From a virus, in IMG/VR virus record IMGVR_UViG_3300009034_002371, positions 1 to 64,000 of that record: 64,000 bases of DNA. One strand, 5' to 3'. This document shows, piece by piece, positions 1 through 55,187 of the stretch (positions are counted from its first letter, which is position 1; each line of letters starts with the position of its first letter). The position numbers and the translations under genes are program-made. The notes under the pieces are model-generated. The model had not been told where the DNA came from. It ran no database searches and saw nothing but the letters and a program-made list of their open reading frames with translations.

Positions 1-3000
1 ATACATTCTCTTAGGGAAATTACAAGGCGGAACTGGGAGGAGATTGAACGACTTCTTGACCAGTTAACTGAGTTAAGGGATCAAGGAGAGTTGTCCCGTA
101 CAGATGAAAAAAGCGTTGGACACTTTTTGCTTAAATCTCTCATTTTTAACGAGAGACTTGCTAAAGCAATAGATGAAGTGCTGGGGACGGAACCTATGCA
201 GTCTCAATTAGATGCCACTCTTCATTTAGCTCAAACTGAGGAAGAAGAAAGTAACAGTGATAAAGGGACTGTATCAACTTTTCTACAGTCACGGATACAC
301 GAGTCGTTCACACGCGCTGCAGATCAGTTGTACGCTATGGGTCTTATAAATACTGATGAACGTATAGCTATTTCTAGTTGTATCGGTGATGCCCTCGAGG
401 CATTTGCCGATGTTATGAGAGAGAAAGTACCTAGCGCTTTGGAGATAGATGTACCGGTTGAGGTTGCGCAAGAAATCCTCCGAAACGCTATCTTGAATAG
501 AAGACAGGGTGTCCTTCGTGTGGCCCAAGAGCCCGAGCCAGTTCCCATCGGACCTGAGGGGGAGGAGGTTCGGGAACACGGTGCATTTTATACCTCGTTG
601 TCAGACCTGATAGAGTTAGCTCTTGGAGATGAACGTCATGCTATAGCAACTTATGATGCAATACTTGAACCAATGGATGAAGATGATCCAAACAGGCTAG
701 CGTTTGAAGAGATTCTTAGGGATGAGCAGGATCATGAAAAAATTCTTATTCGAATGTTGGGGGCTAAAATACCCCCTCCGGTTAAAGCTGTTAAACTATC
801 CAAGATAGCGTCACTTATTCGATTAGCCATAGACAGGCAGGATTTCTTTGACTTTTATGGGTTGGCTTTTTTGCCAAGTGCTAAGCCCGAGGTTAGCTAT
901 GCAACTGATCCAGATGCGTATTTAGAGAATCTGAGGGAAAACTATGATGCCGTCTTAAATCGTATTTCGACGGTTTTGGATTTGGGTTATCAGTACATTA
1001 CGGAGTTGGGATCTGTGGTTAGGGGCGAGTTTCTTGATAATATCTATCAATCGGGGCTATTCTCGATTGCAGTAGATAAGCTTGAAGGTAAAGTCTCTGA
1101 AGAAACGTTTGATTTTCTGAGCGAGTACGCGCGTATCTATCCTGCACACCCCACAGCAGAAGAGCTTCGGGAGATACATAAGGATATGCCCGTAGAAGAT
1201 TTAGTTGTCCTATATGAAGAACTACCTTGGTCGGGAAATTATGGTGGAGAGCCTTGGGCCCGTATAGCAGAAGCATACGTCCGGTTACAAGATGTCTACG
1301 GTCAAGCTTCTGAAATATTATCGGAGGGGGCAATGCCGGAGGATTGGGCTACTGCTCTTAGGAGTGGAGATTTTGGGAGAGGAGTTACCGATGTAGCTTC
1401 CTCTATAGATTACCTAAACTCCCTAGTGCATAACACCGCTCCAGCTATGGCGAAACTTGATAAATGGATTCCTTATGCTCTCACATTAGTTTCTGCCAGT
1501 GCTGTTGCTCCCCCAGTGGCCGAGGAGATGTCTCCTCAAGCTCGGAAAGCTGTCGGGGAGTATTATCGGGTGCACCCAGAGAGGGGAGAAACTTATGAAC
1601 AGTTTGTTCAGAACTTCGGGAATCGTGTTGAGGAACTCCCTGAAACGGTTAAGACGTACGTCCTTGGAAACGCGGAGGATCCCGAGCTTGTAAAAGATCT
1701 GTTTTATGATTTTGTGAGGAGGAGATCTACTACCTCGGACACGGATAAGATGTCCCAGTATAGTACTTTTCTTAATCAGCTTGAACGGTCACCAGGGTTT
1801 AAAGCACTTGAGCAGGGGGGATATGATAATCAAGGGATGGAAGTGCTGGGGTATATTAGCTCGTTGGATCCTGAAGAAGTTCCTCGGTATATTTCCCAAT
1901 TACCGCCAGCTTATACAAGCGCGTTGTTAAGAAATCCTGATACCTCCCAAGACATTGTGGGCATGGTCGCCGAGAGGACAGATTTACCTCTACCTGTGAT
2001 GGTGGAGTTAGTTCCTCGTATAGAAGATCAAACTATGCGGGAGGAGATGTTTGATCGCCTTACAGATCCTCACCAAACACCACAGGTTATATTTTCCGCA
2101 GCATTTGATCCTATCCGCTTTTTAGACGATCCAAGTCCCTTTATACGTTACCGTGCACTCGATTTTGCTTTTGACAGAGATAAAACTTTTGATGCTAGTG
2201 CCTATCTGGATGATCCTGATGAGCAAGTGAGGGGGCTTGCTCAGCAAATTATGGAGACTCGGCAGGTTCCACCAGAGGAGGCTGACGAAGCACAGTATAA
2301 TTGGGAGGTATTTAGGAACAGTTATGGCAACCTAGTCAGTGAAATGGGTATTTGGGAGCAAATTGAGCCTAGGGAAGTATCTGAAGAAGAGTTCCGATCG
2401 GCTTGGGAGACGCTAGCTGATCCCGGGACAGGTAAGTTTGATAGAGCACAAGCTGCATCGTTCATAAGAGGGTACCCCAAGCCTCCACTTCCAGTAGGTG
2501 CAGAGTTGGGAGAGGCCCAAGTGGTTCTGGAGCAGCTTAAAAGTGAGGGAGTTTCGTTTGAAGACCAGTACCGCGGGCTCCTCGATTGGGCTGGGGATGC
2601 TGGCTATGTATTGCCCAGGATACCTAACCCCGAGGAAGTTGATGCGGCCTGGCAGGGGTTGGGCGGCTCGGCTAAGATACACAGCCCCGCGGGAGTCTCT
2701 GCGGAAGAGATGTTAAATTTTATCGTCGGTTATGGTCCGGCCGAGGAAATACCTGAAGAAGTACCACCCGAGATTTCACCCGCTTTTGCTGATGAGTATG
2801 CTGCTCTTGTACAACAAATGATCAATGCTGGAGAAATTGATCCCAGCCGAGCAATAGTTACCCCGGAGGAGCTTATTGAGGCACAGGAGTATCTGATGTA
2901 CGATCCTATTTCTGGGTTTCAGTATGCTGCGGCAAAAGAGTTCATAAAAAGTTATACACCGGTTGAAGAAGTTCCTGAAGAAGTTCCACCTGAAGAAGCA

Positions 3001-5592
3001 CCTTGGTGGCAGAAGTTATGGCCTTGGGGAGGTAGCCCCGAGCCTACTGAAGCTAGTAAGCTCCCAGACACTGAGGAAGAGTTCTTTGAGTATCTAATCG
3101 CCGCTGCAGAGAAATTCTTATTCGACCCTAACTCGACACAAAACGAAGGTCGTTGGCGTCTTATAGACCCGAGAGTATTTGATCAGGATAGTATTCGTAG
3201 GTGGAATATTTGGAAAGATATAAAAGCCCCAGGTATTCAATTCGTGATGGGGAAAGACACTCGGGATAAGCAATGGAAACCTCAGGCTATCCGTTTTCAA
3301 AAACCGGATTGGGATGAGACATCAGCTTCAGAATGGTGGTCGAAGAACAAGCGTTACTTTACAAAAGAGTGGACTCAGGCTGATTGGGATGAGTGGATGC
3401 AAAAGCGTCCAGGTGAGATTTTCCCAGAGTATGCAGGACGCGAACCCGAAGAAACTAAAGAGGCGCAGGGGCCGCCAGTAGAGCCTGGGAGATTTGATAT
3501 AGGTCTTTGTGCGTGGTGCGGCTCTGTTATGGATCCACAAACTGGAGCGATTATCGGCGACCTCCCCCCTGGAGTTAGTAGAGAAGAAATTGTTACTTCT
3601 GGTATATGTGAAAAGTGTACGAAAAAGTTTCTAGATGAGATGGGAGAGCCCACACTTCAAACTGCTTCCATAGAGAAAGAAGCCGTTTCCGGCTATTGTG
3701 AGATCTGCGGTGACTGGCATGAAGAGCTTTATAGACATAGAACAACACCCGGCTGGGAAGGTGGTGAATACGTTCCAGAGAATATACAGTTGATCTGCGC
3801 GGAATGTCATGAGCGACTTCACCAGGAGGCCGGTGAATATGAGATGGGCGGGCGATGGCGTCATGAGTTACTAATGGAGGAACTTGGACCGGAGGCATAT
3901 AGTGAGTGGCAAGCAGCACGTGGTAGGCAACGCCAAGAGAAACTTTTAGAAATGATGGGCCCTGAAGCGTATGCTGCATATCAGCAGCTTCTAGCTTTGT
4001 ATCGGTGGCACCCCGAAATGTTTCCTGGAGGGCCAAAGTTTGGTCCCAAGGCTGCTGACTCCAAAGTACCGAAAACACTCGCCGTTGACCTCGACGGTAC
4101 TATTCTCGAATACGATGGATATAAAGGTGTAGGTATATTCGGTGAACCTATTGGCGGTGCTAGAGAGACGTTGCAGAGGTTTAGAGACGATGGGTGGTAT
4201 ATTGTTATAGATACTTGTCGGGGAGAGGTACCACTAGTTATAGAGCATTTGATGATTCAGGAGATTCCATTTGATACTGTGAATACTAATCCTTTTCAAC
4301 CAGATACTGCTAACCCCGGTAAGCCTATGGCAGATTATAGAATAGATGACTCAGCTATTTGTTTTAGCGGCGACTGGTTGGCGGTTTATGATGAGATAAG
4401 CCGCAGGGAGAAGGATAAGGAATACTCTCCGCTGGAGGCTATTAAAGTTACCGCTAACAGTGGCGGTGCTTTCGCATATGATCCAACTAGAGGTATACTA
4501 CTCGACTTTACAGACCCTTTTGGGCATCGTACTCAACCACAAGATTATCCTGATCCGGCATATTGGGGGTACCCCAAAAGTCTCAAAAAGAAACGGAGGA
4601 AGCGTAAAAGAGATGAAGAAACGTCTAAGGATATTCGTCCTACCGGAAGTGTCCTCGATTTCCCGAGGGGATCGCTCGACCCAGCGATCTGGGAATATGA
4701 AGAAGGAGCGGGCATCCCGAAACTCCGTCCGGAAGTAAAAGAAACCATTACCAGAGAGTTTCAAGACTGGGCGGATTTGGTAGGGATATATGCTGATCCC
4801 GAGGATTGGATTAAAGAGTACCTATTTGTCGGATCCTCAGCAACAACGCAATGGAAAGAGATAAGTGATATTGATATAACTGTAGTAATAGATACAGATA
4901 TCGTCGAAGCTTCTAATGTGGTTCCGAGTGACATTATCGGAGAAGAAGTAGCTTCGTGGTTGGGGATTCAGGCTTCGTTGGGCTTAAGTGGTTACGAGAT
5001 TGCTAAACATCCGGTGAACTATTGGATAGCTTCCGATGAAAAACCCGTTGATTTTGCCGACGCTGTATATAATCTTAATACTGACACCTGGATTAAACCT
5101 CCTCCTGAAGTGCCCATGCCGTTTGATCCCGAGGAAGCTTTTGGAGATGTTTGGAAAGAGGCCAGGAGCTGGGCGAACAGCTTCGATATAGGGCTTAGTG
5201 AGACTAGGAGAGATATAGCCGATTTTACGGATTTGGTTAAGTATCGTAAAGAGGAAGAAGCCCGAGGAATAGAGCTTGATGAGCTTTTTTGGGTTGGAGC
5301 TAAGATGGGAGTTAAGCGCGGTGAAATTGAGCAAGATATAAGAGCAATATTAGATGATTTTAAGAAACTTTATGAGCAAAAGGAATTGGCATTCGCAGCC
5401 CCTGTGCAGATGCCACCTGAGGGACGTTTATACTTCTCCAGGAGCTGGTTACCAGCTGTTCTTGTATGGAAATGGCTTGAGAGATATCATTATCTCAAGT
5501 TGCTGAAGGATATATTTCAAATCTATAAGGACGAGCCAGAGGATACTATAACCGAAGAGAAGGTTTGGAAACTAAGGGAAATGCTATCCTAG
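1..5592 (+). CDS. Giant mosaic virion-associated protein (5' end missing)
   Basis: The frame is open from base 1, so the true start lies left of the window; 1863 residues are visible. Recognisable pieces in order: a ferritin-like helical segment (nt ~574-780, with DERHA and DEQDHEK typical of rubrerythrin-type helices); HEAT-like repeats with the LDDP motif (nt ~2100-2260); Glu/Pro-rich linkers (VPEEVPPEE); a four-Cys zinc site (CAWC and CEKC, nt ~3510-3620); an HNH-like module (CEICG to CAECHERLH, nt ~3690-3830); a HAD-type motif (VDLDGTIL, nt ~4080); and a nucleotidyltransferase motif (GSSATTQWKEISDIDITVV, nt ~4828-4890). Its place ahead of the protease and capsid genes suggests a head-associated or internal virion protein; a portal-related region left of the edge is possible. 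The overall function is unknown. The HNH, HAD and nucleotidyltransferase calls rest on motifs only. Confidence 0.7.
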   Translation: MHSLREITRRNWEEIERLLDQLTELRDQGELSRTDEKSVGHFLLKSLIFNERLAKAIDEVLGTEPMQSQLDATLHLAQTEEEESNSDKGTVSTFLQSRIHESFTRAADQLYAMGLINTDERIAISSCIGDALEAFADVMREKVPSALEIDVPVEVAQEILRNAILNRRQGVLRVAQEPEPVPIGPEGEEVREHGAFYTSLSDLIELALGDERHAIATYDAILEPMDEDDPNRLAFEEILRDEQDHEKILIRMLGAKIPPPVKAVKLSKIASLIRLAIDRQDFFDFYGLAFLPSAKPEVSYATDPDAYLENLRENYDAVLNRISTVLDLGYQYITELGSVVRGEFLDNIYQSGLFSIAVDKLEGKVSEETFDFLSEYARIYPAHPTAEELREIHKDMPVEDLVVLYEELPWSGNYGGEPWARIAEAYVRLQDVYGQASEILSEGAMPEDWATALRSGDFGRGVTDVASSIDYLNSLVHNTAPAMAKLDKWIPYALTLVSASAVAPPVAEEMSPQARKAVGEYYRVHPERGETYEQFVQNFGNRVEELPETVKTYVLGNAEDPELVKDLFYDFVRRRSTTSDTDKMSQYSTFLNQLERSPGFKALEQGGYDNQGMEVLGYISSLDPEEVPRYISQLPPAYTSALLRNPDTSQDIVGMVAERTDLPLPVMVELVPRIEDQTMREEMFDRLTDPHQTPQVIFSAAFDPIRFLDDPSPFIRYRALDFAFDRDKTFDASAYLDDPDEQVRGLAQQIMETRQVPPEEADEAQYNWEVFRNSYGNLVSEMGIWEQIEPREVSEEEFRSAWETLADPGTGKFDRAQAASFIRGYPKPPLPVGAELGEAQVVLEQLKSEGVSFEDQYRGLLDWAGDAGYVLPRIPNPEEVDAAWQGLGGSAKIHSPAGVSAEEMLNFIVGYGPAEEIPEEVPPEISPAFADEYAALVQQMINAGEIDPSRAIVTPEELIEAQEYLMYDPISGFQYAAAKEFIKSYTPVEEVPEEVPPEEAPWWQKLWPWGGSPEPTEASKLPDTEEEFFEYLIAAAEKFLFDPNSTQNEGRWRLIDPRVFDQDSIRRWNIWKDIKAPGIQFVMGKDTRDKQWKPQAIRFQKPDWDETSASEWWSKNKRYFTKEWTQADWDEWMQKRPGEIFPEYAGREPEETKEAQGPPVEPGRFDIGLCAWCGSVMDPQTGAIIGDLPPGVSREEIVTSGICEKCTKKFLDEMGEPTLQTASIEKEAVSGYCEICGDWHEELYRHRTTPGWEGGEYVPENIQLICAECHERLHQEAGEYEMGGRWRHELLMEELGPEAYSEWQAARGRQRQEKLLEMMGPEAYAAYQQLLALYRWHPEMFPGGPKFGPKAADSKVPKTLAVDLDGTILEYDGYKGVGIFGEPIGGARETLQRFRDDGWYIVIDTCRGEVPLVIEHLMIQEIPFDTVNTNPFQPDTANPGKPMADYRIDDSAICFSGDWLAVYDEISRREKDKEYSPLEAIKVTANSGGAFAYDPTRGILLDFTDPFGHRTQPQDYPDPAYWGYPKSLKKKRRKRKRDEETSKDIRPTGSVLDFPRGSLDPAIWEYEEGAGIPKLRPEVKETITREFQDWADLVGIYADPEDWIKEYLFVGSSATTQWKEISDIDITVVIDTDIVEASNVVPSDIIGEEVASWLGIQASLGLSGYEIAKHPVNYWIASDEKPVDFADAVYNLNTDTWIKPPPEVPMPFDPEEAFGDVWKEARSWANSFDIGLSETRRDIADFTDLVKYRKEEEARGIELDELFWVGAKMGVKRGEIEQDIRAILDDFKKLYEQKELAFAAPVQMPPEGRLYFSRSWLPAVLVWKWLERYHYLKLLKDIFQIYKDEPEDTITEEKVWKLREMLS

Positions 5593-5612
5593 ATACCTGG
5601 GGAGGTTTTACT

Positions 5613-6671
5613 ATGAGGGGGATGTTTTTGAACTTCACAGGCGATGCCACAATTGATGAGGCTGTGGAAGAGTACACACTACTCCATGCGCTTGAGGATG
5701 ATTGGATTGATTATACAGAGGTTCGTGATCGGATGGCTGAGCTTATTGAGCAAGGTAAGGGTCTCCCCAGAGAGACGGTTCTTGCTAGATTGACCGAGGT
5801 GCATGGCGCACCACAGTTTAAATCCCCCGCTCAGCGTCGGTGGTATTTTGCTACGCAGAAGGGTGATGAAGGAAAAGTACCTGAATCTAAGGGCAAACGG
5901 TGGCAGGAAATTTTGCAACAAGCAAAAGACGCACTGGCGGCTCAACCGGATATAACGGGTCCTGAACTAGTAGGTTTAGTTGATATGGATCCTCCACTAT
6001 CGCCTAGTGAGCAAGAGCGTGTAGAGAAGCTGGTTTCTCCGGAGAGGGCTAGGAGGTTAGTGAGAGCGCCTGAAGCGGTTCCTAAGGAGGAACGCACTCC
6101 AGAAACCGAGGAACTTGTGACGGAGAGATGGCCGAAACGGGAACGGGAGAGGGAAGAGAAGAAGGAGAAAGAGCTCGTGCCTAAACCGAAGAAAAGGACC
6201 AAAAGAACTCAGTTGGGTCCGAGTCAGATTCCTTTTGTTTCACAGCCGGGAATGCCTTATGTGGGCGCAGAGAAAGCTCCTCAGAAGGCATACTTCCTCG
6301 ACAAATGTCCAGAGATAGCTGATGGTGATAACTGGCGAGCTTTTCAGCAGGCGGTACAGCTTGTACGAAGTGACGTGGAGGATGGAGATGTTAAGGCGAC
6401 TCTTTGCGCGGAATATCCTGAGGTCGACCCCCAGGAGATTTTACAAGCTGCGAAAGGGTATCTTAGACAGGCAAAGAAGGATCCCTATGTGGATGGTCGG
6501 GTATACGCTGATAGCTTAGTTCGTCAGGGTATGAGTGTAGCTGCACTAGCGGCTGAGTATTCTAGTTTACAGTGGCAGGAGGTCGATCCTAGATTTATAC
6601 AGGGTTTCCAAGGAGGGCTACCTTTCGATGTCCTAAGAGTGATACGACGCAAAGAGAGGGTGTTACTTTAG
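5613..6671 (+). CDS. Basic head-region protein with SPAQRRWYFA motif
   Basis: 352 residues. The ATG at 5613 is chosen because GGGGAGG lies about 8 nt upstream; a longer reading frame from 5565 would overlap the previous gene and lacks such a site. About 65 residues in is the motif KSPAQRRWYFA, and a related QRRWWFA motif ends the protein at 13986-15938. Variants of this short motif recur in phage head-region proteins. The centre (nt ~6010-6210) is highly charged and probably disordered (EREREEKKEKE, KPKKRTKRT). The C-terminal third looks helical. No catalytic motif is seen. A scaffold, head-assembly or internal protein is inferred from position only. Confidence 0.6.
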   Translation: MRGMFLNFTGDATIDEAVEEYTLLHALEDDWIDYTEVRDRMAELIEQGKGLPRETVLARLTEVHGAPQFKSPAQRRWYFATQKGDEGKVPESKGKRWQEILQQAKDALAAQPDITGPELVGLVDMDPPLSPSEQERVEKLVSPERARRLVRAPEAVPKEERTPETEELVTERWPKREREREEKKEKELVPKPKKRTKRTQLGPSQIPFVSQPGMPYVGAEKAPQKAYFLDKCPEIADGDNWRAFQQAVQLVRSDVEDGDVKATLCAEYPEVDPQEILQAAKGYLRQAKKDPYVDGRVYADSLVRQGMSVAALAAEYSSLQWQEVDPRFIQGFQGGLPFDVLRVIRRKERVLL

Positions 6672-6701: not shown

Positions 6702-6962
6702 ATGATTATTACAAACAACACGGCTCAGGATATAACTTTTGAATTGGATGTTAATAAGAATCCGCTCAAGGGTATGCAGAGTAGGCTTACTGTTCGCCCG
6801 GGTTACCCAGCGACGGTAGATGTCGAGCACATTTGGATGCTGGTCCAGGATCAGGGTTTTCAAGCCCAGGTCGCCGCTGGAAATATCGACATCACCTATG
6901 CTGCAGCAGACACCACATACCTAGCCAATATTCTGAGTTTCCTCAACGGCACATACACTTGA
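6702..6962 (+). CDS. Small beta-rich virion protein, paralog 1 of 3
   Basis: 86 residues; ATG with AGGAGG upstream. Together with the next two genes it forms a tandem family sharing the pattern TNNT-x-F-x-D-N/K, then SRL-x-V-x-P/PA, V-x-VE, D-x-GFQ-x-V-x-x-GN/S, and a C-terminal FLN. Here these appear as SRLTVRPG, VDVEHIW, DQGFQAQV and LSFLNGTY. The alternating hydrophobic pattern suggests a compact beta fold. Family function is not recognised; placement between head genes suggests a capsid-surface or decoration protein (inference). Confidence 0.65.
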   Translation: MIITNNTAQDITFELDVNKNPLKGMQSRLTVRPGYPATVDVEHIWMLVQDQGFQAQVAAGNIDITYAAADTTYLANILSFLNGTYT

Positions 6963-6982
6963 TGCCTAGCGGACTGGCCTGT

Positions 6983-7004
6983 GGGGCGGTAATCCTACCG
7001 CCCC
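6983..7004 (+). terminator. GC-rich hairpin between paralogs 1 and 2
   Basis: GGGGCGGTA pairs perfectly with TACCGCCCC across a four-base ATCC loop, giving a 9-bp stem. No T-run follows directly, so it may be a weak terminator, a processing site or an mRNA-stabilising hairpin that changes the dose of the neighbouring paralogs. Confidence 0.5.
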
Positions 7005-7042
7005 GAAGCTGCCAAAAAAATGTGTCTGGGAGGTAGACGAAA

Positions 7043-7357
7043 ATGGCTTCAAACGCTCTTGTAAGGCTCACAAATAATACGAATCAAAGCTATGCATTCG
7101 AGGTCGACATTAACAAACCGGTGAAGTTTGTCAGCAGGCTGGTACTGCCTGCCAATGGATCAGCTGAAGTTGAGGTGGAAACAGTTGTCCCTATGGTTTT
7201 CTTCGATAGAGGTTTCCAGGCAGCAATAGTTAGTGGTAATGTTACAATTGCTTTTAACTTCACCACATCCAATAACGTAGCAAGCACAGCAAGCAGGTAT
7301 CTCAACAATATCCAAAGGTTCCTTGCTGCAAATGCATCCGGTTGGCAAACGTCCTAG
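7043..7357 (+). CDS. Small beta-rich virion protein, paralog 2 of 3
   Basis: 104 residues; ATG preceded by GGGAGG. Shared family positions are visible: LTNNTNQSYAFEVDINKPV, SRLVLPANG, VEVETVVP, FDRGFQAAIVSGNV and a C-terminal RFL. It is closer to paralog 3 than to paralog 1 (both have VKFVSRL/VKYVSRL and FDRGFQ). Between the GFQ motif and the C-terminus it carries a polar Asn/Ser/Thr-rich stretch. No function is recognised beyond the inferred virion role. Confidence 0.65.
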   Translation: MASNALVRLTNNTNQSYAFEVDINKPVKFVSRLVLPANGSAEVEVETVVPMVFFDRGFQAAIVSGNVTIAFNFTTSNNVASTASRYLNNIQRFLAANASGWQTS

Positions 7358-7375
7358 TCTGGGGGTGAAAGGGGA

Positions 7376-8113
7376 ATGAGACTTACAAATACCATAAGTA
7401 ATAATATAGCTTTTGGTGGGGAAACAGGTAAGTCTGTGAAATATGTGTCTCGTCTTATTGTCCCTGCCAACAGTTACAGGGACGTTGATATAGAACAAGT
7501 AATGCCCCTGGCCCTTTTTGATCGGGGTTTCCAGAACAGCGTTGCTAACGGCAGCATAGTTCTGACTTTCGGATCTGCAGATCAATCTTATCTGAGTCGA
7601 GTGCGAGGTTTTCTGAATAGTTTGTTGAATTTGAGCTCATCGAGTTCCTGCTCTTCGAGTTTCAGTAGTTGTTCATCGAGCTTCAGCAGTTCGAGTTTCA
7701 GTAGCTGCTCATCGAGCTTCAGCAGTTCGAGTAGTTGTTCATCGAGCTTCAGCAGTTCGAGTAGCTGTTCATCGAGCTTCAGTAGTTCGAGTAGCTGTTC
7801 ATCGAGCTTCAGTAGTTCGAGTAGCTGTTCATCGAGCTTCAGTAGCTGCAGTTCCAGCTTCTGTTCATCGAGTTCAAGCTTCTCGAGTTCATCTAGCTGC
7901 TCATCGAGCTTCAGCTCATCGAGTTCATGTTCAAGTAGCTTCTCAAGTTGTTCATCGAGTTCAAGCTTCTCGAGTTCATCTAGCTGCAGTTCCAGCTTCT
8001 CAAGTTGTTCATCGAGTTCCAGCTTTAGCTCGTCAAGTTCATGTTCAAGTAGCTTCAGTAGCTCGTCAAGTAGCAGTCCCTCGTTCTCAAGTTCTAGTTC
8101 AAGTACCCCTTAA
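7376..8113 (+). CDS. Small beta-rich virion protein with Ser/Cys/Phe-rich tail, paralog 3
   Basis: 245 residues. The first ~87 repeat the fold of the two preceding paralogs (VKYVSRLIVPANS, VDIEQVMP, FDRGFQNSV, VRGFLNSLL). From nt ~7636 to the stop it becomes almost pure Ser with regularly spaced Cys and Phe (SCSSSFSSSS), about 160 residues. The tail mixes TCN and AGY serine codons and is built partly on a 30-bp DNA period. A stalk or spike projecting from the capsid is a plausible role, and the serines are candidate O-glycosylation sites for the phage's own glycosyltransferases (inference). It could instead be a low-complexity spacer without modification. Confidence 0.65.
   Translation: MRLTNTISNNIAFGGETGKSVKYVSRLIVPANSYRDVDIEQVMPLALFDRGFQNSVANGSIVLTFGSADQSYLSRVRGFLNSLLNLSSSSSCSSSFSSCSSSFSSSSFSSCSSSFSSSSSCSSSFSSSSSCSSSFSSSSSCSSSFSSSSSCSSSFSSCSSSFCSSSSSFSSSSSCSSSFSSSSSCSSSFSSCSSSSSFSSSSSCSSSFSSCSSSSSFSSSSSCSSSFSSSSSSSPSFSSSSSSTP
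7738..7857 (+). repeat. 30-bp tandem repeat inside the Ser-rich tail
   Basis: A 30-bp unit, starting around CTGTTCATCGAGCTTC and ending in TTCGAGTAG, recurs about four times with one- or two-base changes. It encodes a 10-residue CSSSFSSSSS unit. The repeat is in frame with the coding sequence and lacks spacers, so it reflects tandem amplification of the tail and not a CRISPR array. Confidence 0.75.
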
Positions 8114-8182: not shown

Positions 8183-8995
8183 TTGACTTTTAAATACCCG
8201 TATCCTACAATTAAGGTACATGCAGATGTACAGGATGTTAGCTCGTGGCAGAATGCTATAGCTGATATCTGGCAGGAAATGCCAGACAAAGCTCGAAAAG
8301 TTGCAAATCAGTTAGTTTCAGTTGTTATAGTTGTAAATCCTAACGACCCGAGATTAACGCTGGGCTACACCAAAGAGCCAAAAGCAGCTGCTATTGGAAA
8401 TACTTTGATTCTCTCGTGTAGTGAAGATGTTAACGAGCTATTACACGAGGTAGCCCACACTATAGTTGATAGGGGTTTTACAGGCAGGGATCGGGAAGCA
8501 GTTGATCACTTCTATGATTTCTCGGATAGTGAAAGAGCTCCGTCAGAAAGACTAGCTGAAGATTTCTACTTTACCGTTAAAGGAGATGAGCCTTCCCCTT
8601 TTTGGCAATGGTGGTTTGAACGTGGTTTAGTTGAGGGAGAGAAAATGAGAACAGTGGTGGCCGAGAAAATAGCAAAGCTTGCACGGAACACAAGTGTGAA
8701 TCCTCTACACGTCGTTGAAGCAGTGCTAGATGCATTTGCCGAGGAACTTGTTTACGACTTCGGCGGTGAGGAGCATGTGTGGCTTTACGGTATCGCCAGA
8801 GAGGCTTTAAAGGAAGCTCAAAAGGAAGATCAGCTAGCCTATGAAAATCGCTCTGCCCCTCATCAGTACTACTATGCGGAGGACCTAGCAACTCCACCGA
8901 CCCGTCCTCGGAAACAACCGCTAGGTGAACCGCTGAAAGTTGAACGACCGGATGTTACAATGAGGGGGACATACACAACACCACCTATGGTGTAA
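8183..8995 (+). CDS. Zincin-like putative metallopeptidase
   Basis: 270 residues; TTG start with GAGGG about 6 nt upstream. Near residue 88 lies LLHEVAHTIVDRG, a clear HExxH zinc-binding motif on a predicted helix, and further on SERLAEDFYF may supply the third ligand Glu, as in short HExxH...E zincins. The C-terminal third is Pro-rich and probably disordered. It stands between virion genes and directly ahead of the protease-like fusion at 9026. It may process a virion protein or act after entry. Peptidase activity is inferred from the motif only, and a structural protein with a vestigial motif is possible. Confidence 0.6.
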   Translation: MTFKYPYPTIKVHADVQDVSSWQNAIADIWQEMPDKARKVANQLVSVVIVVNPNDPRLTLGYTKEPKAAAIGNTLILSCSEDVNELLHEVAHTIVDRGFTGRDREAVDHFYDFSDSERAPSERLAEDFYFTVKGDEPSPFWQWWFERGLVEGEKMRTVVAEKIAKLARNTSVNPLHVVEAVLDAFAEELVYDFGGEEHVWLYGIAREALKEAQKEDQLAYENRSAPHQYYYAEDLATPPTRPRKQPLGEPLKVERPDVTMRGTYTTPPMV

Positions 8996-9025: not shown

Positions 9026-12000
9026 ATGTTCGTTCCGAGAAAGGGTTTTGTCAGATACGGGAACAGAGTAACCATAGCTAGGGCTGGCACTTATCAGGAG
9101 GTGATTGGCACTACGGATGTTATTCTCGGCCCTCAAACTATGCAAAAACTTGCTGCTCTGGTTCCTGTAAGTGAGTATTCAGACAAGTATTTATACGTGA
9201 GAGCTAGGGCAGTTTCTGGGTATGAGAAATATGGGCCAAATGAGAACGGTGATGCTTTTGAGTGGCTGGAGTTGGCAAAAGCTTATCCCACCTTTGTCCG
9301 GGGTGGGATCTATAAGGACCATAATAATAAGGATCGCAGAGAGGCTGTTGGAATTGTAGTTGATGCCTGGCCCAATACTGATGAAGAGTTTGTTGAGGTC
9401 TTGATGGCTATTAACAAACAGAAGGCACCTAGGGAGGTTAAGCTAATAGAGTCCGGGAAGTTGACAGATGTCTCTATGGGGTGTGTAGTTGATGAGGCCA
9501 TATGCTCCGTTTGCGGTAACATTGCACGTGATGAGACTCAGTACTGCGATCATATTAGACAGGGTTTAAAGGGTCAGGTAATAGGTGGAGAGCCATGTTT
9601 TGAGTACAATAAAGGTGTCCGATTCTTTGAAGTCAGCTTGATAAGTCCCTGGAGCGAAGCTGCTGACCCCGCGGCTAAGATAAGGGAGACTATAGCTTCT
9701 AAAGTTGAGTTGGCTGGTTTCGAGGAGTGGATTGTAGATCACTCCGAATTGGACGAGACTATCCCCATTTTAAATAGGGAGGAGCGTGTAGGTATGGATT
9801 TCGTGTTTGGGCAGTTGGTGACTACTAGGGATGGTAGACGCGGGACTGTAACGGGTCAACAGGGCGAGGAAGTCACAGTTACGCTAGAGGGCTCCGGCGA
9901 TGAGCCTCTCCTGTTCCGTGCTGACTATTTAACTCCAATCGCCGTAGAGCCAAATAGTAAGGAGGTTGTAGAGATGGCGAAGGAAAAGGAAGCCGCCATG
10001 AGCCCTCGAGAAGCGCAAGGGGAAGGCCCTGAAGAGTATGATATGGAACATCCGTTCAGGGGCAATCCGATGCGTGGCCGATGGCATGGTGACTACGGCT
10101 CGCCCGGAGAAAAGTTTCAGCAGGATTTTGATCGTACTAATGTACCGTCGGATCCTGTTGACTTACGTGGGCAGCAGATGTCTAGTGAAAAGGAACGCGG
10201 TGACTACTTGCATAAGGGCTATACTGGTGATAAGGCAGAAGGGAAGGCTCCTATCGGTGCAAGTCGTCGCCGTCCTGTAACTGCTGCAGAGCTCGAGGAG
10301 CAGATGGATTACGCACTCGAACAGGCAGCAGATGCCGGTGTAGAGCTGGAAGAGGTTAAGGAGAAGGAGGCTAAGAGAACGGGTCTTTTTGACCGTGCGA
10401 AAGCTGTCTTCGGGATCGGCAAGGAAGCTGACTACACCGAGTATGATGAGGAAAACCCAGATAGGGGATCTATGATGCGTATGAGGGATCCGAGCGATGA
10501 CCAGTATAATTCGGCCTCGGAGTACTTTGATGCGCAGAAGGCTGAAGCTGATGCAAAGGATGCTGAGACTCGTACAGATATCGAAAGGCAGCGTCCTGTG
10601 ACCTATTCTAATACTCCAGAGGAGATTTCCAAGATAAGGTCAGTTTCTACAAAGACAGCAGGGGCTGAGGATGTAGATAAACTCGTGGATATGCTCAAGA
10701 AGGTCTTCAAGGAGGACGAGAAGAAGGTTACCGAGTTCGTCGATACCGTTCGTAAGTTGGATGAAGCAGATTTCGACGAACTGGCTAAGGCTCTCAAGGG
10801 CGTGAAGGAAGAAGAAGACAAAGAAGTTGAGAAAGCTAAGGACAAGGATAAAGAGGAAGAGCCAGAGGGTCCTCCAAAGAGACCAGAGGGTCCTCCAAAG
10901 AGACCAGAGGGTCCTCCAAAGAGACCAGAGGGTCTTCCAAAGAGACCAGAGGGTCTTCCTCCAGGTCGCCGTCCTGCACCTCCAACAGGTCCTCCAAAGA
11001 AACCGGTGGGTCTTCCAGGTGGTGCTCCAGGTGGTGCTCCTCCAAGACTCCCAGGTGCCCCTGGTCCTGGTCCTGGTGGTTTACCGATGGGCGATGTAAG
11101 AATGTATGCACGTCAGGCCATAGCTGCTAGAGAGCTTTCCAAGTTGGCAGCAACCCTTGGTCAGTGGGGTGATGAGGATCCTGTAGCACACGCCAAGAGG
11201 ATGGTGCTGCAGCAGATCTCTAGAGACCCAGCAACAGATCCTACTAGTATATTCTGGTTGGCTTCTGATGTCCGTGGCCTGGATGAAGAGCAGATGGGTC
11301 GGCTCGCTGGTGAGCTACACCTCGAAATCCCGGGTGTACACCCAAGAACAGCTTCGGTAGATTACGAGAGAATGACCAATGCTGAGATTTTGGGTGCATA
11401 CAAGGCTCTGGCAGCTAATGCAGTTTCTGATACTGCTCTAAAAGATGTTCTAACCGCTATGCTCCAGAGAGGCATTACATTGAAGGTAGCTGCAGAGCGG
11501 AAAGACGTCCTAAGATATATCTACGAGCGTATGACCAAGGACAATGTGCCCTATATTGAGGCTAGGAGGGAGGCTGATGTAAAGTTTGACATTATAAAGG
11601 ACAAACCCGATCAGCCTGGTACCCGCCCTCTAGGGTTTGGGCATGAAACTGAAGGTCCTGGTAGCTCGTCTGAGCTGGGCCATCAAGAGCCTAGTGACGG
11701 AAGACATCTCAGCCGCGGAACCCCAGGCGCAATGGGTGGTACACCTACCCCTTCCGGTGTTACGCCTAGGGAGTTTAACGAGCGGGTCCCGTATAGGAGT
11801 TCTGGTATGAGACGTGAAGCAGTTGACGGGGCGTTCCTAAATGATTATGACATAACCTATGGCACCAACACCCGTTGGGATGAGCGTGTCAAGACTATGT
11901 CAGAACAGGAGAACGCTACACAGAAGAGAGATTTCGCGGCAGAGCTGAGAGAAGCTCGGAAGCGGGAACTGGCGTCCAGAGGTGGCGAAGTAACTGCTGC

Positions 12001-13909
12001 TAGGTCTTTCTCAGAGTGGAAGTCCGCTCTAAAGAGGAAAGGTGCTCCCGCGAAGACCATTCGTAAGTTCGAGCACATTTGGAAATCGGCTCTCGATGAC
12101 GGCAAAGGCGAGGAATACGCAGCACGCGCTGCTATAGATTCGGTTCCGGCCCAGTATATCGAGAAACCTACCAAGGAGCATGGCCCCGAGAAGAAAGGCC
12201 CGATAAAGAAGTCCGATCTTCAGGCAACGCTGGTGGCTTATAAAGCCGGAGAGATTACCGACGCCGAGATACTCGAGATGCTGGTGGATGTTACAGATGA
12301 CGAGGCCACAGAGGCTGTTAGGACAGCAGCCGGTGCCGAGTACACAGGTCCCGAGATGCTTGGATCTGAGATAAAAGGTGCCCCTTCAGCTGATCTTGCT
12401 GTTGAGGAGACTAGGAAGCAGAAAAAGGATTTCCAGCAGGAGCTGAAAGAAGCAACGGGCGTCAAGCTCGGTCAGAGGCTCAGAGTGGCTGTAGGTGCCA
12501 GTGATGAAAGTCACCTCGCTGAGGTGATGGAAATCGTTACCGATAGCGATATAATCCACGTGGATTATGAGGACGGCATCCGTAACAGAGACGCTATAGA
12601 CCTTAAAGAGGGTCGCTCCAAAGTCTTTGGCCCTGTGCGTGTCTATACAAGACCAGAGATCCTAACGGTCAAGAAAGGTAACTGGATTGGTTACGGCGAT
12701 GGCGCTTCATGGAGCTTATATAACTTCCATCGCGAAAGTGGGAAGATAGCCGAGGTGAAGTTGGCCGAAGCAGATCCGGCAGAGATCGTTACGGACTTTC
12801 AACTGGCTGGGGAGGATGCAGTCCCCGAGTTCTTCGCTTCGAAGGCATATGGTGAAACTGTTCTCGAGAAGATGGAGGAACTGGAGACGCAGGGAGCACT
12901 CGATCCAGAAGAGGGTACAGGTGTTCCATCGGCAACTGAAGCCGCTCCTGGTGAGATAGCCGTTGGTGCTCGTGTAGTGATTGCTGAAGGTTGGATGCCC
13001 ACTGGTGAGGAGTCCGATGAGTTGGTCCACGACATCGTCCAGCTCCGAGACGAAGAGGTTGAAGGAGCAGTCGAGGCGGTTGATGATAGGACTGACGAGC
13101 TCCAGGTGGACTTTGGCGGCGATCGATCTATCATCCTCAGTACAGCTGAGGTAAGGTTAGCTCGGGATGCTAATGAGACAGGCACCGATGTCCGGTGGAC
13201 AGAGGAAAGTAGGGCTCAGGCTGAGCAAGAGAACAAGACACAACAGTCTGAGTTCGCAAAAGAGCAAGTGCTCTCCTCGTTCGGACCTGATTCTCAGAGA
13301 AGTACGCATCTTGCGGCAAAGACCGCTTCTAAGGTGGGCCAATTCGAGGAGCACACAGCGTTTATGAGCACCTTGGTAAGAGATGCAGGGTTGCGTGTTA
13401 AAGATGCACTTCCTCATGTAGTTCAGGCCTTCGAGATGACTGAAGAGGAGACTCAGGCATTTGTAGAGAGTGATGAGTATACGGAGGCTTTCGAAATGCC
13501 CTTGACTCCTAATAAAATGAATAGCGAACCTGAATTCGGTGCAGGTAAGGAAGTTACGCAGATGCGTGTGAAACTCGCCGGCATGAAGAAACGTCTCTGT
13601 GCCCGAATTGCCCAAGACATGTATAGCAGGGGCATGATTAAGGGCGTAACTGCGGATATGAGCGATGACGATATCCGGCAGGCACTTGACGATCAGATCG
13701 ATAGGCTGATGAAGATGGATGAGCAGGGTCTCTATGAGTTTGAAGAGGCTGTAAAATCGGCTTCAGACCCTGATGGAGTCGAGGCTCTCCGGAAACGATC
13801 AGCTAGGATTGGCCCAAGAGAGGGTACGCTGCAGCAGCCGCTGATAATGAGAGGTGCTAGCAAACCGGCATCGATGAACAGTCTGGATGATCCCGAGTTC
13901 TTCAAGTAA
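9026..13909 (+). CDS. Prohead-protease-like domain fused to a very long head protein
   Basis: 1627 residues; ATG with GGAGGG upstream. The first ~225 residues match the phage family found beside capsid genes: YGPNENGDAF, then IYKDHNNKD, LTDVSMGCVV, the zinc-like CSVCGN...CDHI set, and FFEVSLISPWSEAADPAA. The His of DHNN and the Ser of VSMG are candidate catalytic residues by analogy with prohead proteases. After it come charged Lys/Glu-rich segments, a proline-rich repeat (nt 10862-11090, PPKRPEG units followed by Gly/Pro), and several QRDFAxELREA / KKDFQQELKEA-like helical motifs that look internally duplicated (nt ~11925 and ~12420). Such fusions may be a protease plus scaffold. The order protease, scaffold, capsid fits the downstream genes. 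Confidence 0.7.
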   Translation: MFVPRKGFVRYGNRVTIARAGTYQEVIGTTDVILGPQTMQKLAALVPVSEYSDKYLYVRARAVSGYEKYGPNENGDAFEWLELAKAYPTFVRGGIYKDHNNKDRREAVGIVVDAWPNTDEEFVEVLMAINKQKAPREVKLIESGKLTDVSMGCVVDEAICSVCGNIARDETQYCDHIRQGLKGQVIGGEPCFEYNKGVRFFEVSLISPWSEAADPAAKIRETIASKVELAGFEEWIVDHSELDETIPILNREERVGMDFVFGQLVTTRDGRRGTVTGQQGEEVTVTLEGSGDEPLLFRADYLTPIAVEPNSKEVVEMAKEKEAAMSPREAQGEGPEEYDMEHPFRGNPMRGRWHGDYGSPGEKFQQDFDRTNVPSDPVDLRGQQMSSEKERGDYLHKGYTGDKAEGKAPIGASRRRPVTAAELEEQMDYALEQAADAGVELEEVKEKEAKRTGLFDRAKAVFGIGKEADYTEYDEENPDRGSMMRMRDPSDDQYNSASEYFDAQKAEADAKDAETRTDIERQRPVTYSNTPEEISKIRSVSTKTAGAEDVDKLVDMLKKVFKEDEKKVTEFVDTVRKLDEADFDELAKALKGVKEEEDKEVEKAKDKDKEEEPEGPPKRPEGPPKRPEGPPKRPEGLPKRPEGLPPGRRPAPPTGPPKKPVGLPGGAPGGAPPRLPGAPGPGPGGLPMGDVRMYARQAIAARELSKLAATLGQWGDEDPVAHAKRMVLQQISRDPATDPTSIFWLASDVRGLDEEQMGRLAGELHLEIPGVHPRTASVDYERMTNAEILGAYKALAANAVSDTALKDVLTAMLQRGITLKVAAERKDVLRYIYERMTKDNVPYIEARREADVKFDIIKDKPDQPGTRPLGFGHETEGPGSSSELGHQEPSDGRHLSRGTPGAMGGTPTPSGVTPREFNERVPYRSSGMRREAVDGAFLNDYDITYGTNTRWDERVKTMSEQENATQKRDFAAELREARKRELASRGGEVTAARSFSEWKSALKRKGAPAKTIRKFEHIWKSALDDGKGEEYAARAAIDSVPAQYIEKPTKEHGPEKKGPIKKSDLQATLVAYKAGEITDAEILEMLVDVTDDEATEAVRTAAGAEYTGPEMLGSEIKGAPSADLAVEETRKQKKDFQQELKEATGVKLGQRLRVAVGASDESHLAEVMEIVTDSDIIHVDYEDGIRNRDAIDLKEGRSKVFGPVRVYTRPEILTVKKGNWIGYGDGASWSLYNFHRESGKIAEVKLAEADPAEIVTDFQLAGEDAVPEFFASKAYGETVLEKMEELETQGALDPEEGTGVPSATEAAPGEIAVGARVVIAEGWMPTGEESDELVHDIVQLRDEEVEGAVEAVDDRTDELQVDFGGDRSIILSTAEVRLARDANETGTDVRWTEESRAQAEQENKTQQSEFAKEQVLSSFGPDSQRSTHLAAKTASKVGQFEEHTAFMSTLVRDAGLRVKDALPHVVQAFEMTEEETQAFVESDEYTEAFEMPLTPNKMNSEPEFGAGKEVTQMRVKLAGMKKRLCARIAQDMYSRGMIKGVTADMSDDDIRQALDDQIDRLMKMDEQGLYEFEEAVKSASDPDGVEALRKRSARIGPREGTLQQPLIMRGASKPASMNSLDDPEFFK
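10862..10965 (+). repeat. 21-bp tandem repeat encoding PPKRPEG
   Basis: About five in-frame 21-bp units encode PPKRPEG (the last ones LPKRPEG). The first three units are identical at the DNA level. They form a basic, proline-rich hinge inside the protease-like fusion. The reverse strand is also open here, a consequence of the repeat and not a second gene. Confidence 0.8.
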
Positions 13910-16014: not shown

Positions 16015-16068
16015 GTCATATAGCTTATGAGGCGCAAGCCTACTACGAGTGGCGGGGGGTTATATGAC
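16015..16068 (+). promoter_or_regulatory. Candidate structured mRNA leader
   Basis: GTCATATAGC and GTTATATGAC pair over 10 positions (one G-T) and enclose a small hairpin AGGC-GCAA-GCCT with a GNRA-type loop. The structure ends about 20 bases before the strong AAGGAGG of the gene at 16103. It does not match a riboswitch class I can name. Confidence 0.35.
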
Positions 16069-16102
16069 GAAACGAATAACGTCACACAAGGAGGTATTAT
16101 TC

Positions 16103-16597
16103 ATGGGTGCTAAAATTCAATTCCTAGGTGGTTATCAGGATGGTACCATCGAGGTGAACCCAAATACAGATGCGTACGTACAGGGCCAGCCACTTAAAAT
16201 CAACACCGATGCACAACTGGAACTCTGTCTGTGCTACAGGGAAGGATACGACGATGGATATGCAGGGCTGGCAAAGGGATGGTCAGGATCAGCGGCTGTA
16301 GGCGACAGACGCTCAGACATCTACAACGGTAAGGCAACTTACTGGGCTGGGTTCAACCAGATTAGGTTAGATGCGACCGATCCGAGAAATCCCGACAACG
16401 ATGTTGTGCCGTTTGATACGGCGCCGATATATAACCCAGGCGATGATATCTATATCAACGTTTTGGGCTTCTTGACCAATGTTGGTCCCGCCGGACCCGC
16501 TGGTTACACAGCTGTCTGTGACAACGCTACGCCGATCGCGTATGTGGTCTCAGTCGGTGCTGAAGATGCATATCTGGTCATCAACCAGGTGAGATAA
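16103..16597 (+). CDS. Small capsid-associated protein (putative decoration or fibre)
   Basis: 164 residues. The ATG at 16103 has a strong AAGGAGG 8 nt upstream; in-frame starts at 16049 and 16064 are possible but less well supported. It begins MGAKIQFLGGYQDGTIEV and is rich in Gly, Asp and aromatic residues (YREGYDDGYAGLAKGW, YNPGDDIYINVLGFLTN), as expected of a secreted-like or virion beta protein, with no membrane segment. It stands immediately ahead of the major capsid gene, each with its own long leader and strong binding site, which points to a high-copy head protein. Identity as a decoration protein is inference. Confidence 0.55.
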   Translation: MGAKIQFLGGYQDGTIEVNPNTDAYVQGQPLKINTDAQLELCLCYREGYDDGYAGLAKGWSGSAAVGDRRSDIYNGKATYWAGFNQIRLDATDPRNPDNDVVPFDTAPIYNPGDDIYINVLGFLTNVGPAGPAGYTAVCDNATPIAYVVSVGAEDAYLVINQVR

Positions 16598-16781: not shown

Positions 16782-17780
16782 ATGCGTTATGCATCCGCCA
16801 CCGCAGAAGGTGGTTTAAGTCAAGCCGACCTCACTCAGATTTCGACAGCTGTTGCAAGAGGGCTGCAGTTGTCGGGAAGAGCTGGTCGAACGGTTGATAT
16901 GAATCCGGCCGAGAAAAGACGCAAAGAGTATATCAGCGGGATTCAGAAAGAAGCTGCTCTGGCCAGGGCATTAACGACCGAAGCGGGATTGAGAAAGATT
17001 GCGGCCAATATGGCCAATCCCGTGAGGTTTTATCTCGATTATAAAGGCATCTTCAGGAAGTTTGCTGTAGTTGAGCAAATACCTGACGGTGTGCCCATGA
17101 TCTACGACAGGGACTTTCCAGATGTCCCTGCCGTGAAAGTGGGCCCAGGTGGCGCTGCTGCCATGATCGAGATGATTGCACAGCGTGTTGAACTAGAACC
17201 TTTTGAAATAATAGCTCGTCCGAAGGTTCCATACCGCGAGCTATTCAACCGAAGGTTCCGCGCGCTAGATAGGGCAAAGGACAAGCTGATCTGGGGTATG
17301 GAGCTAAGAGAGGATCTCATCGGCTTCTCCCTGTTGGCTACTGCCTGGGCAGCGGGCCCAAATGCAGGTGTGGCCGTAGCAGGTGCCCTCACGAAAGCGG
17401 CACTTGCAGATGCCTTCGCTCAGATAGAGCGTTGGAGGTTACCGGTTGCATCCGTCCTGATGTCAGCCTACGGTACTCGTGACATTAGGAGCTGGGAATG
17501 GACGGTATTGGATCAGTTGGCCCTTCAAGAGATCCGAGAGACCGGTTATCTCGGAAATCTGTGGGGTGCTGACTTCTACGTCAGCGACCAGGTTCCATAC
17601 GGAACTATGTATATAATGACCACGCCGAAGTTCCTCGCCTGGATGCCGTTCCGACGTGATACTCAGGTGATTCCGGCAGACGATCCGGATAACACCTGGT
17701 TAGGGTTCGTCGGATATGAACTCCTGGGAATGACAGTATTCAATTCCCGTGGAGTTACCAGGCTGACCTTCACCGTCTAG
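16782..17780 (+). CDS. Major capsid protein (HK97-type fold expected)
   Basis: 332 residues; ATG with GAGGAGG upstream. The pattern matches a widespread phage capsid family: VPYRELFNRRFRALDRAKD in the centre, a region for the A domain with IERWRLPVASVLMSAYGTRDIRSW, then TGYLGNLWGADFYVSD, VPYGTMYIMTTPKFLAWMPF, IPADDPDNTWLGFVGYE and LGMTVFNSRGVTRL at the end. The order of helices and strands fits an HK97-like subunit. The first ~50 residues are polar and may be a removable delta region. It is followed by a strong hairpin at 17801-17831, consistent with a highly transcribed late gene. Confidence 0.85.
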   Translation: MRYASATAEGGLSQADLTQISTAVARGLQLSGRAGRTVDMNPAEKRRKEYISGIQKEAALARALTTEAGLRKIAANMANPVRFYLDYKGIFRKFAVVEQIPDGVPMIYDRDFPDVPAVKVGPGGAAAMIEMIAQRVELEPFEIIARPKVPYRELFNRRFRALDRAKDKLIWGMELREDLIGFSLLATAWAAGPNAGVAVAGALTKAALADAFAQIERWRLPVASVLMSAYGTRDIRSWEWTVLDQLALQEIRETGYLGNLWGADFYVSDQVPYGTMYIMTTPKFLAWMPFRRDTQVIPADDPDNTWLGFVGYELLGMTVFNSRGVTRLTFTV

Positions 17781-17855: not shown

Positions 17856-18389
17856 ATGGGGGATTGGAATGCAGATTATGAGTTAGCCCAGAAGTGTAGC
17901 AAAGGAGATAAGGCTGCCCTCGATGGCTTAGTCTCTCAGTTTCTTCCTAAGATTTCTAACAGGGTGCAGAGACTGATTCCTGAATGGGATGCGGAGGATG
18001 TAGTACAAGATGTAGTTTTTGCTATGCTTAACAGTATAGGAAACTATAGGGCTAAATCGGCGCTCGTTACTTGGGTTTATAGAATAACTACTAATAAGGC
18101 AGCCGACTATTTTCGAAAACGTGGCCGCGAGATTCTAGTTTCCACACGTGGGGGACTTTCGTATGGCTCAGCCGATCTCCGCGATGAAGTAGATTGCCTT
18201 TTGTTAGTCGACGAAGTTTTCTCTAGAGTCCTTGAGAAAAACGAAAAGTACCTGGAAGTTGTGCAGTTGAAGTTTTATGAGGGTCTTAGCTTTGGGGAGA
18301 TTTCGGAAAGGTTGGGTATCGGGTACGAGGCAACTCGCTCGCGTTATCGGAGGGCAATGGATAGTGTTGAACAGTTTATGTTGCATTAG
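17856..18389 (+). CDS. ECF-type RNA polymerase sigma factor
   Basis: 177 residues. Region 2 is clear (DAEDVVQDVVFAMLNSI, then LVTWVYRITTNKAADYFRKR for recognition of the -10 element). After a ~50-residue linker, region 4 has a helix-turn-helix (LSFGEISERLGIGYEATRSR). Regions 1 and 3 are absent, as in ECF factors. It would bind host RNA polymerase core and direct it to phage promoters; its position right behind the capsid gene suggests a late or virion-gene role. No anti-sigma gene is seen beside it. The ATG at 17856 has only a weak binding site, so expression may be low or coupled. Target promoters are unknown. Confidence 0.85.
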   Translation: MGDWNADYELAQKCSKGDKAALDGLVSQFLPKISNRVQRLIPEWDAEDVVQDVVFAMLNSIGNYRAKSALVTWVYRITTNKAADYFRKRGREILVSTRGGLSYGSADLRDEVDCLLLVDEVFSRVLEKNEKYLEVVQLKFYEGLSFGEISERLGIGYEATRSRYRRAMDSVEQFMLH

Positions 18390-55129: not shown

Positions 55130-55187
55130 TGGTACATATTTACGCCTTGACTGTACTTAGGGTGAATTTGTAATTGGGGGTTGTTGT

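Follow-up and report, generated by a model that had tools for sequence, protein, structure and literature searches.

A giant ORF in the head region of a phage-G-like virus and its possible role at nucleic-acid ends

The window analyzed here, positions 1 to 64,000 of the IMG/VR virus record IMGVR_UViG_3300009034_002371, opens with a very long reading frame, termed W1, in which enzyme-like modules are encoded beside the capsid genes. The question raised by this locus is whether such a protein belongs to the structure of the head, works in the cytoplasm of the infected cell, or is carried in the head and delivered with the genome. The first-pass annotation had proposed an internal or injected multifunctional protein. 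The reading judged just probable in the present study is that a phage-G-like myovirus encodes here a giant "polyvalent" head protein, of which W1 is the C-terminal part and which would be packaged, probably cleaved, ejected, and put to work on nucleic-acid ends.

The giant ORF and its modules

W1 is a single open frame of 1,863 codons (window 1-5592, plus strand) with no stop codon up to the left edge, in agreement with the single protein of more than 1860 residues announced initially. The first base of the window is also that of an 82,761-b linear viral contig, so that W1 is 5'-truncated and begins beyond the assembled sequence; the N-terminus is missing through assembly and not through biology. 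An ORF placed at the edge of one contig could in principle be an assembly chimera of unrelated genes. This explanation is hardly credible, because GC content and skew are even and because modules homologous to several ORFs of the closest relative, G001, are found together in the one frame of W1. The features of W1 and of the neighboring head genes are as follows.

1..5592, plus strand: giant head-region ORF W1, 5'-truncated (open frame at contig start; modules homologous to the G001 giants)
577..774, plus strand: ferritin/rubrerythrin-like helical hairpin, aa 193-258 (PF00210 E=0.064; 46-47% identity to G001)
793..813, plus strand: KLSKIAS, candidate border motif, aa 265-271, at the junction of ferritin hairpin and helical module (position and motif class)
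835..1902, plus strand: helical module, aa 279-634 (two G001 ORFs at 27% identity, E=3e-24 and 3e-25)
2119..2253, plus strand: HEAT-like stretch, aa 707-751 (by eye)
3109..3393, plus strand: FDPNST module, aa 1037-1131 (N-terminus of the G001 782-aa ORF, 61.5% identity, E=1.7e-33)
3505..3630, plus strand: zinc-ribbon-like Cys4, aa 1169-1210 (CAWC ... CEKC)
3688..3855, plus strand: HNH nuclease domain, aa 1230-1285 (PF01844 above cut-off; phrog_144 4e-5; HNH residues)
4057..4413, plus strand: HAD phosphatase domain, aa 1353-1471 (phrog_1238 1.6e-17; tblastn 1e-18; motifs)
4585..4620, plus strand: basic linker KKKRRKRKRDEE (W1 sequence)
4672..5271, plus strand: Pol-beta-type nucleotidyltransferase-like domain, aa 1558-1757 (phrog_36119 7e-5; GSS...DxD at 4825-4890)
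5565..6671, plus strand: next head-region gene (G001 215-aa ORF in the same order, 37% identity, E=1.7e-26)
8183..8995, plus strand: conserved gene upstream of the protease (G001 match 2e-25)
9026..13909, plus strand: prohead protease (N-terminal ~250 aa) and long scaffold-like part (phrog_18299 2e-14; phage G gp19, 39% identity)
16049..16597, plus strand: capsid decoration protein homologue, by position (G001, 64% identity; adjoins the capsid gene like phage G gp26)
16782..17780, plus strand: major capsid protein (phrog_2522 2e-43; phage G gp27, 34% identity)

By its matches to gp27 and gp19 of Bacillus phage G, the virus of the window (G000) is phage-G-like. The corresponding gene order in phage G is portal gp14, gp15-18, protease gp19, decoration gp26 and capsid gp27.

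The HNH-like module reported in the first-pass annotation was recovered: PF01844 scores 22.4 bits against a cut-off of 21.4 (aa 1233-1276, E=1.4e-4), and the region combines Cys pairs with residues in the order H...N...H (YRHRT, ENIQLIC, CHERLH). The zinc site described with it corresponds to two Cys pairs, LCAWCG (aa 1169-1174) and GICEKC (aa 1201-1206). The HAD domain, first recognized from its VDLDGTIL motif, is firm by sequence comparison. It shares 44% identity with HAD proteins of Rhizobium phages (the tblastn match listed above), is matched to PDB entry 2obb with E=0.003, and contains motifs I (VDLDGT), II (DTC) and III (K...DD). With the NCBIfam model of the BT0820 equivalog (NF046079) it scores 34.4 bits, below the curated cut-off of 165.

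The nucleotidyltransferase proposed from the sequence was retained in part. Its motif, FVGSSATTQWKEISDIDITVV, is present at aa 1609-1630, and the whole region is covered by phrog_36119, a family without stated function. The fold is putative: PF01909 gave 13 bits where 21 were needed (E=0.14), the MntA model gave E=0.13, and an AlphaFold2 prediction of the region from a single sequence had a mean pLDDT of 38.7. A nucleotidyltransferase with a putative fold is probable from the motifs and the one PHROG match; in phages, PDB and the related records the region matched nothing but itself. Concerning the ferritin-like pair of helices, W1 contains one hairpin with DERH and DEQDH, whereas a four-helix bundle would need two ExxH hairpins. 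Weak by itself, the hairpin is a homologue of the rubrerythrin domain of G001, in which PF02915 is above cut-off (4.6e-9) on two hairpins. The HEAT-like repeats were not borne out; aa 707-751 bears a resemblance to them, with no family match.

The Pfam scan of W1 detected no ArdC-N, DarA, zincin, ART or MuF domain, and no LigD domain in the visible part, from which the N-terminus is missing. ArdC-N, DarA, zincin and ART are usual companions in polyvalent proteins, although individual members may lack them. Two other identities of W1 were considered and rejected: LigD, as the visible part contains no LigD domain, and a part of the portal, as the portal of G001 is a separate gene.

The portal-protease slot in related viruses

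Relatives were sampled by a capsid-protein profile search of IMG/VR, which retrieves a wide phage-G-like clade. The closest of them, G001 (159 kb), has a capsid protein 90% identical to that of the window, and its downstream genes are collinear with the window for the small gene after W1, the next gene, the protease-scaffold gene, the decoration gene and the capsid gene. The window itself is devoid of a portal gene, and W1 is assigned to the slot between portal and protease by this collinearity. In G001, the portal-to-protease interval contains four giants of 1796, 1743, 595 and 782 aa. The ferritin hairpin, the helical module and the FDPNST module of W1, the last being the best conserved piece, are spread across three G001 ORFs. 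The FDPNST module is followed in G001 by a LigD 3'-phosphoesterase (PF13298, 1.1e-26), and in W1 by the zinc site, the HNH, the HAD and the putative nucleotidyltransferase. Elsewhere among the G001 giants, an ATP-dependent DNA ligase is recognized by PF01068 (5.8e-16), accompanied by its C-terminal domain, and a LigD primase-polymerase by PF21686 (4.7e-15). Since W1 and G001 share modules but not the enzymes that follow them, the same base is equipped with a different payload. IMG/VR queries with the whole protein, the FDPNST module and the helical module returned G001 as the only relative, so that the architecture of W1 is known from one contig.

Differences of this kind could also be produced by a decaying mosaic, in which a homing-type HNH insertion and passing recombinant domains would have no joint function. 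Indeed, HNH domains are mobile, the enzyme modules of W1 are absent from G001, and the nucleotidyltransferase was found in 0 of the 48 other records. A mosaic is nevertheless very unlikely, given that the frame is uninterrupted over all its codons and that the same functional theme is found, in different genes, in many viruses.

This theme was followed in 48 records of the clade, which are metagenomic contigs related to one another and not independent draws. The order portal, giants, protease, capsid gene is present in G001, G032 and G034. The same slot order is found in G029, whose capsid gene lies just past the stretch examined, and in G025 and G026, in which the contig edge truncates or removes the portal. 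The portal-protease giants measure 900-3,474 aa, and their domains include DNA ligase, LigD domains, DJ-1/PfpI, 2H phosphoesterase, topoisomerase IB, ASCH and poly(A)/CCA polymerase. Seven further loci were obtained by an alignment scan for the phosphoesterase. The matches above Pfam cut-offs are distributed as follows: DNA ligase in G001, G029, G032, G034, L160 and L162; LigD phosphoesterase in G001, G026, G029, G032, G034, L160 and L163; topoisomerase IB in G032, G025 and L165; 2H in G026, G029, G025 and L165; DJ-1 in G029 and G034; and poly(A)/CCA polymerase in G025.

Five of the 48 records have the phosphoesterase above cut-off, and exactly those five match the LigD primase-polymerase too; the latter is below the Pfam cut-off except in G001, the others matching the G001 domain by phmmer at 2e-12 or better. 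In L160, ligase, polymerase and phosphoesterase are combined in one ORF of 1,362 aa downstream of the portal ORF, a theme repeated in L162, L165 and L169, and all three lie within one ORF in L160, G034, L165 and L169. The catalytic motifs of these relatives are intact (KxDG in the ligase, FVDxD and SGGxGxH in the polymerase), and the invariant H, D and R residues of the phosphoesterase are kept. The LigD phosphoesterase went undetected in 50,697 phage records searched with two queries, and a ligase of this kind gave distant matches in 45 of them. Ku was detected in 0 of 49 records, which may be incomplete, and end joining of the classical, Ku-dependent type finds no support.

These results bear on a structural explanation, according to which W1 would be a head-morphogenesis protein (an inner scaffold or a minor head protein) in which the enzyme-like modules persist as leftovers used for binding, the protein being kept in the capsid or discarded. 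The parts shared with G001, helical and FDPNST, are devoid of enzyme motifs, and the gene directly after the portal in phage G and G002 is gp15-like, without enzyme matches. Catalytic motifs are intact, however, in the HAD, the HNH and the LigD modules of the relatives, and the payload varies among close relatives, as a structural part would not. A purely structural role is for these reasons considered unlikely.

Portal genes of the clade show a peculiarity of their own, as portal matches are split by a long insert at L021:7553-10288, L120:896-5149, L122:1000-4149 and L160:1111-4113. The insert of L021 reads as a LAGLIDADG-type intein (CFTPDTMVW...), and portal inteins are possibly recurrent in this clade. 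In a cultured relative, Tunturiibacter phage Tunturi_5, a 1,362-aa giant annotated as NUDIX (L170:16502-20590) was noted, and a "DNA ejection protein" is also encoded upstream of the head protease.

Border motif, proposed mechanism and known systems

The giants contain a short, basic, alanine-ended motif with a form specific to each virus: LSKRA in G025 (12 occurrences against 0.1 in shuffled sequences), AMK(K/R)KA in G002 (12 within head ORFs, 0 elsewhere), KRTA(S) in G007 (21 against 0.9 in shuffles, and 2 in nearly twice the amount of non-head protein) and IKTA in G001 (6 against 0.5 in shuffles, 0 elsewhere). The motif was spotted by eye and its form was fixed after inspection; it was then tested on loci fetched later. 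In the domain-mapped giants, 0 of 21 sites fall inside a domain, where 5.2 were expected. In the later-fetched loci the figure is 1 of 11 (3.4 expected), and 8 of the 11 lie at most 26 residues from a border; in four viruses the ligase is followed by a site at a distance of 9-13 residues, and the phosphoesterase of L165 has LSKRA on either side. The clearest case is that of G002 (L026:909-9799), where AMK(K/R)KA stands between the many small domains from which the giants upstream of the portal are built.

In G000, the broader pattern [KR][ITLV]A was counted 28 times in head ORFs against 13.8 in shuffles, and 36 times elsewhere against 36.6, most of the excess being contributed by the protease/scaffold ORF. 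When motifs were counted without bias, neither G000 nor G001 yielded one strong border motif; for these two the claim is weaker because it relies on broader patterns chosen later. In W1 the motif is weak, with about two plausible sites, the best being KLSKIAS, and W1 alone would not have revealed the border signal. The simplest meaning of the motif is plausibly a cutting site of the maturation protease, the alternatives being a tag for capsid targeting or a simple linker.

The domains in the slot are also compatible with a set of late-expressed cytoplasmic enzymes, encoded among head genes for RNA or DNA repair or counter-defence and never packaged. Phage end-repair pathways are assembled from HAD phosphatases, 2H enzymes, nucleotidyltransferases and ligases, and HAD, 2H, CCA and RlaP-type enzymes serve jumbo phages as ordinary means of repair inside the cell (PMC7824862). 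In G004, HAD and RlaP are encoded by separate small genes near the portal. This explanation is quite unlikely, because it fits poorly with the repeated restriction to the portal-protease slot, with the fusion to conserved non-enzymatic modules, and with a border motif in excess in head-region ORFs and not elsewhere. The enzymes are of the same kinds as those of the repair pathways, where they are mostly stand-alone, whereas here they are fused in the head region.

The packaged polyvalent protein is preferred in view of the slot of the related giants and the resemblance to the polyvalent class (PMC5512222), which together favor an internal and probably injected product. The initial proposal is upheld to that extent; a multifunctional protein acting as a single chain is doubtful, as the border motifs suggest a cleaved polyprotein. 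Polyvalent proteins, described by Iyer et al. in 2017 (PMC5512222), are large, contain 2-15 disparate domains per chain and are encoded near the virion genes of portal-terminase phages. W1 resembles them by its several disparate domains (firm for HNH and HAD, probable for the nucleotidyltransferase and the ferritin-like hairpin) and by its position among virion genes, collinear with the G001 portal-protease interval. The same study lists 2H and Pol-beta nucleotidyltransferase domains, likens polyvalent proteins to polyproteins, and does not mention LigD or ferritin. It describes processing by embedded zincin-like peptidases, unlike the border motifs of the present giants, which would suit a separate prohead protease. 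The class is thus already known, and W1 is a further member with its own domain set.

A mechanism in four steps can be proposed, in which confidence decreases from prohead assembly to cleavage, ejection and finally the end-repair job. W1, made late, would be built into the prohead, its helical and FDPNST modules forming the head-side part. The prohead protease would then cleave it at the basic, alanine-ended border motifs and so release separate modules, which would leave the head together with the DNA and act immediately in the cell. There, the modules would make or mend nucleic-acid ends: the HAD may remove terminal phosphates, the nucleotidyltransferase may add nucleotides or nucleotidylate a target, and the HNH may cut host or rival DNA. 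In the relatives, a LigD-type ligase, a gap-filling polymerase and a 3'-end trimmer could seal either phage ends or the breaks that host nucleases introduce. Candidate substrates are incoming phage DNA under attack, phage termini, and tRNA cut by host defence. Because its enzymes are parts of phage end repair and include the LigD triad, which constitutes an end-joining machine, the theme of the slot appears to be ends that are cut, cleaned, filled and sealed. The enzymes of W1 would mend nucleic-acid ends or counter host defence.

Other systems offer partial parallels. In PMC10052503 and PMC7411985, the E proteins of the phiKZ-like phage SPN3US and the internal proteins of T4 are described as packaged, and several such internal head proteins of large phages as cut by the prohead protease; these are separate proteins of other clades. 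MuF polymorphic toxins (PMC5576092) likewise have variable enzyme ends on a head-side protein adjoining the portal, but W1 has no MuF domain. LigD, the principal end-joining enzyme of DNA repair in bacteria, has the same three domains, with intact motifs, as the relatives (not the visible W1). It differs from them in several respects: in the relatives the ligase comes first, then the polymerase and the phosphoesterase, and the ORFs are longer by hundreds to thousands of residues, lack a Ku partner and are linked to the portal. We know of no LigD, HAD or HNH fusions among the ejection and internal proteins of SPN3US and T4. LigD in portal-linked giants, its recurrence in phage-G-like viruses and the border motif were not found in the literature searched, which leaves many journals uncovered, nor in two surveys (0 LigD matches).

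A broader form of the proposal, tentative and on balance rather unlikely, is that phage-G-like viruses package an end-repair polyprotein which their protease cuts at LSKRA, AMKKKA, KRTAS or IKTA. Ligase, gap-filling polymerase, 3'-phosphoesterase, topoisomerase IB, phosphatase and nucleotidyltransferase would enter with the genome and seal or circularize it without Ku before phage gene expression. LigD-type end joining is regarded as a host system borrowed by phages, as with the Ku of mycobacteriophages. If the proposal is true, these viruses carry an end-joining and end-cleaning kit into the cell rather than producing it after infection, and the survival of very large linear genomes among nucleases during the first minutes would be easier to understand. 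The kit would further provide a DNA-phage counterpart to the polyproteins of RNA viruses, with a readable cleavage signal and mature modules predictable from sequence.

Other genes of the window

Several neighboring genes deserve mention in their own right. Between the giant ORF and the protease, window 6702-8113 contains three tandem small paralogues (LTNNTNQSYAFEVD-like), the third with an added Ser/Cys tract. Long low-complexity Ser/Cys/Phe tracts (SSSSSCSSSFSSS...) are found in several proteins, at window 7376-8113 and 53189-58589 and at L002:597-2696. Directly 3' of the major capsid gene, window 17856-18389 encodes a sigma-70-like factor with regions 2 and 4 above the Pfam cut-off. A gene labeled by eye from its sequence as contractile-sheath-like lies farther along the contig (L002:2774-4273). 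The interval between head and tail genes is occupied by a long run of genes (window 21147-53192) with many glycosyltransferases (PF13524, PF04488 and others), together with a GFO/IDH oxidoreductase, a B12-binding radical SAM protein, a cREC cyclic-phosphate receiver and methyltransferase-like genes; this run looks like a glycan-modification island.
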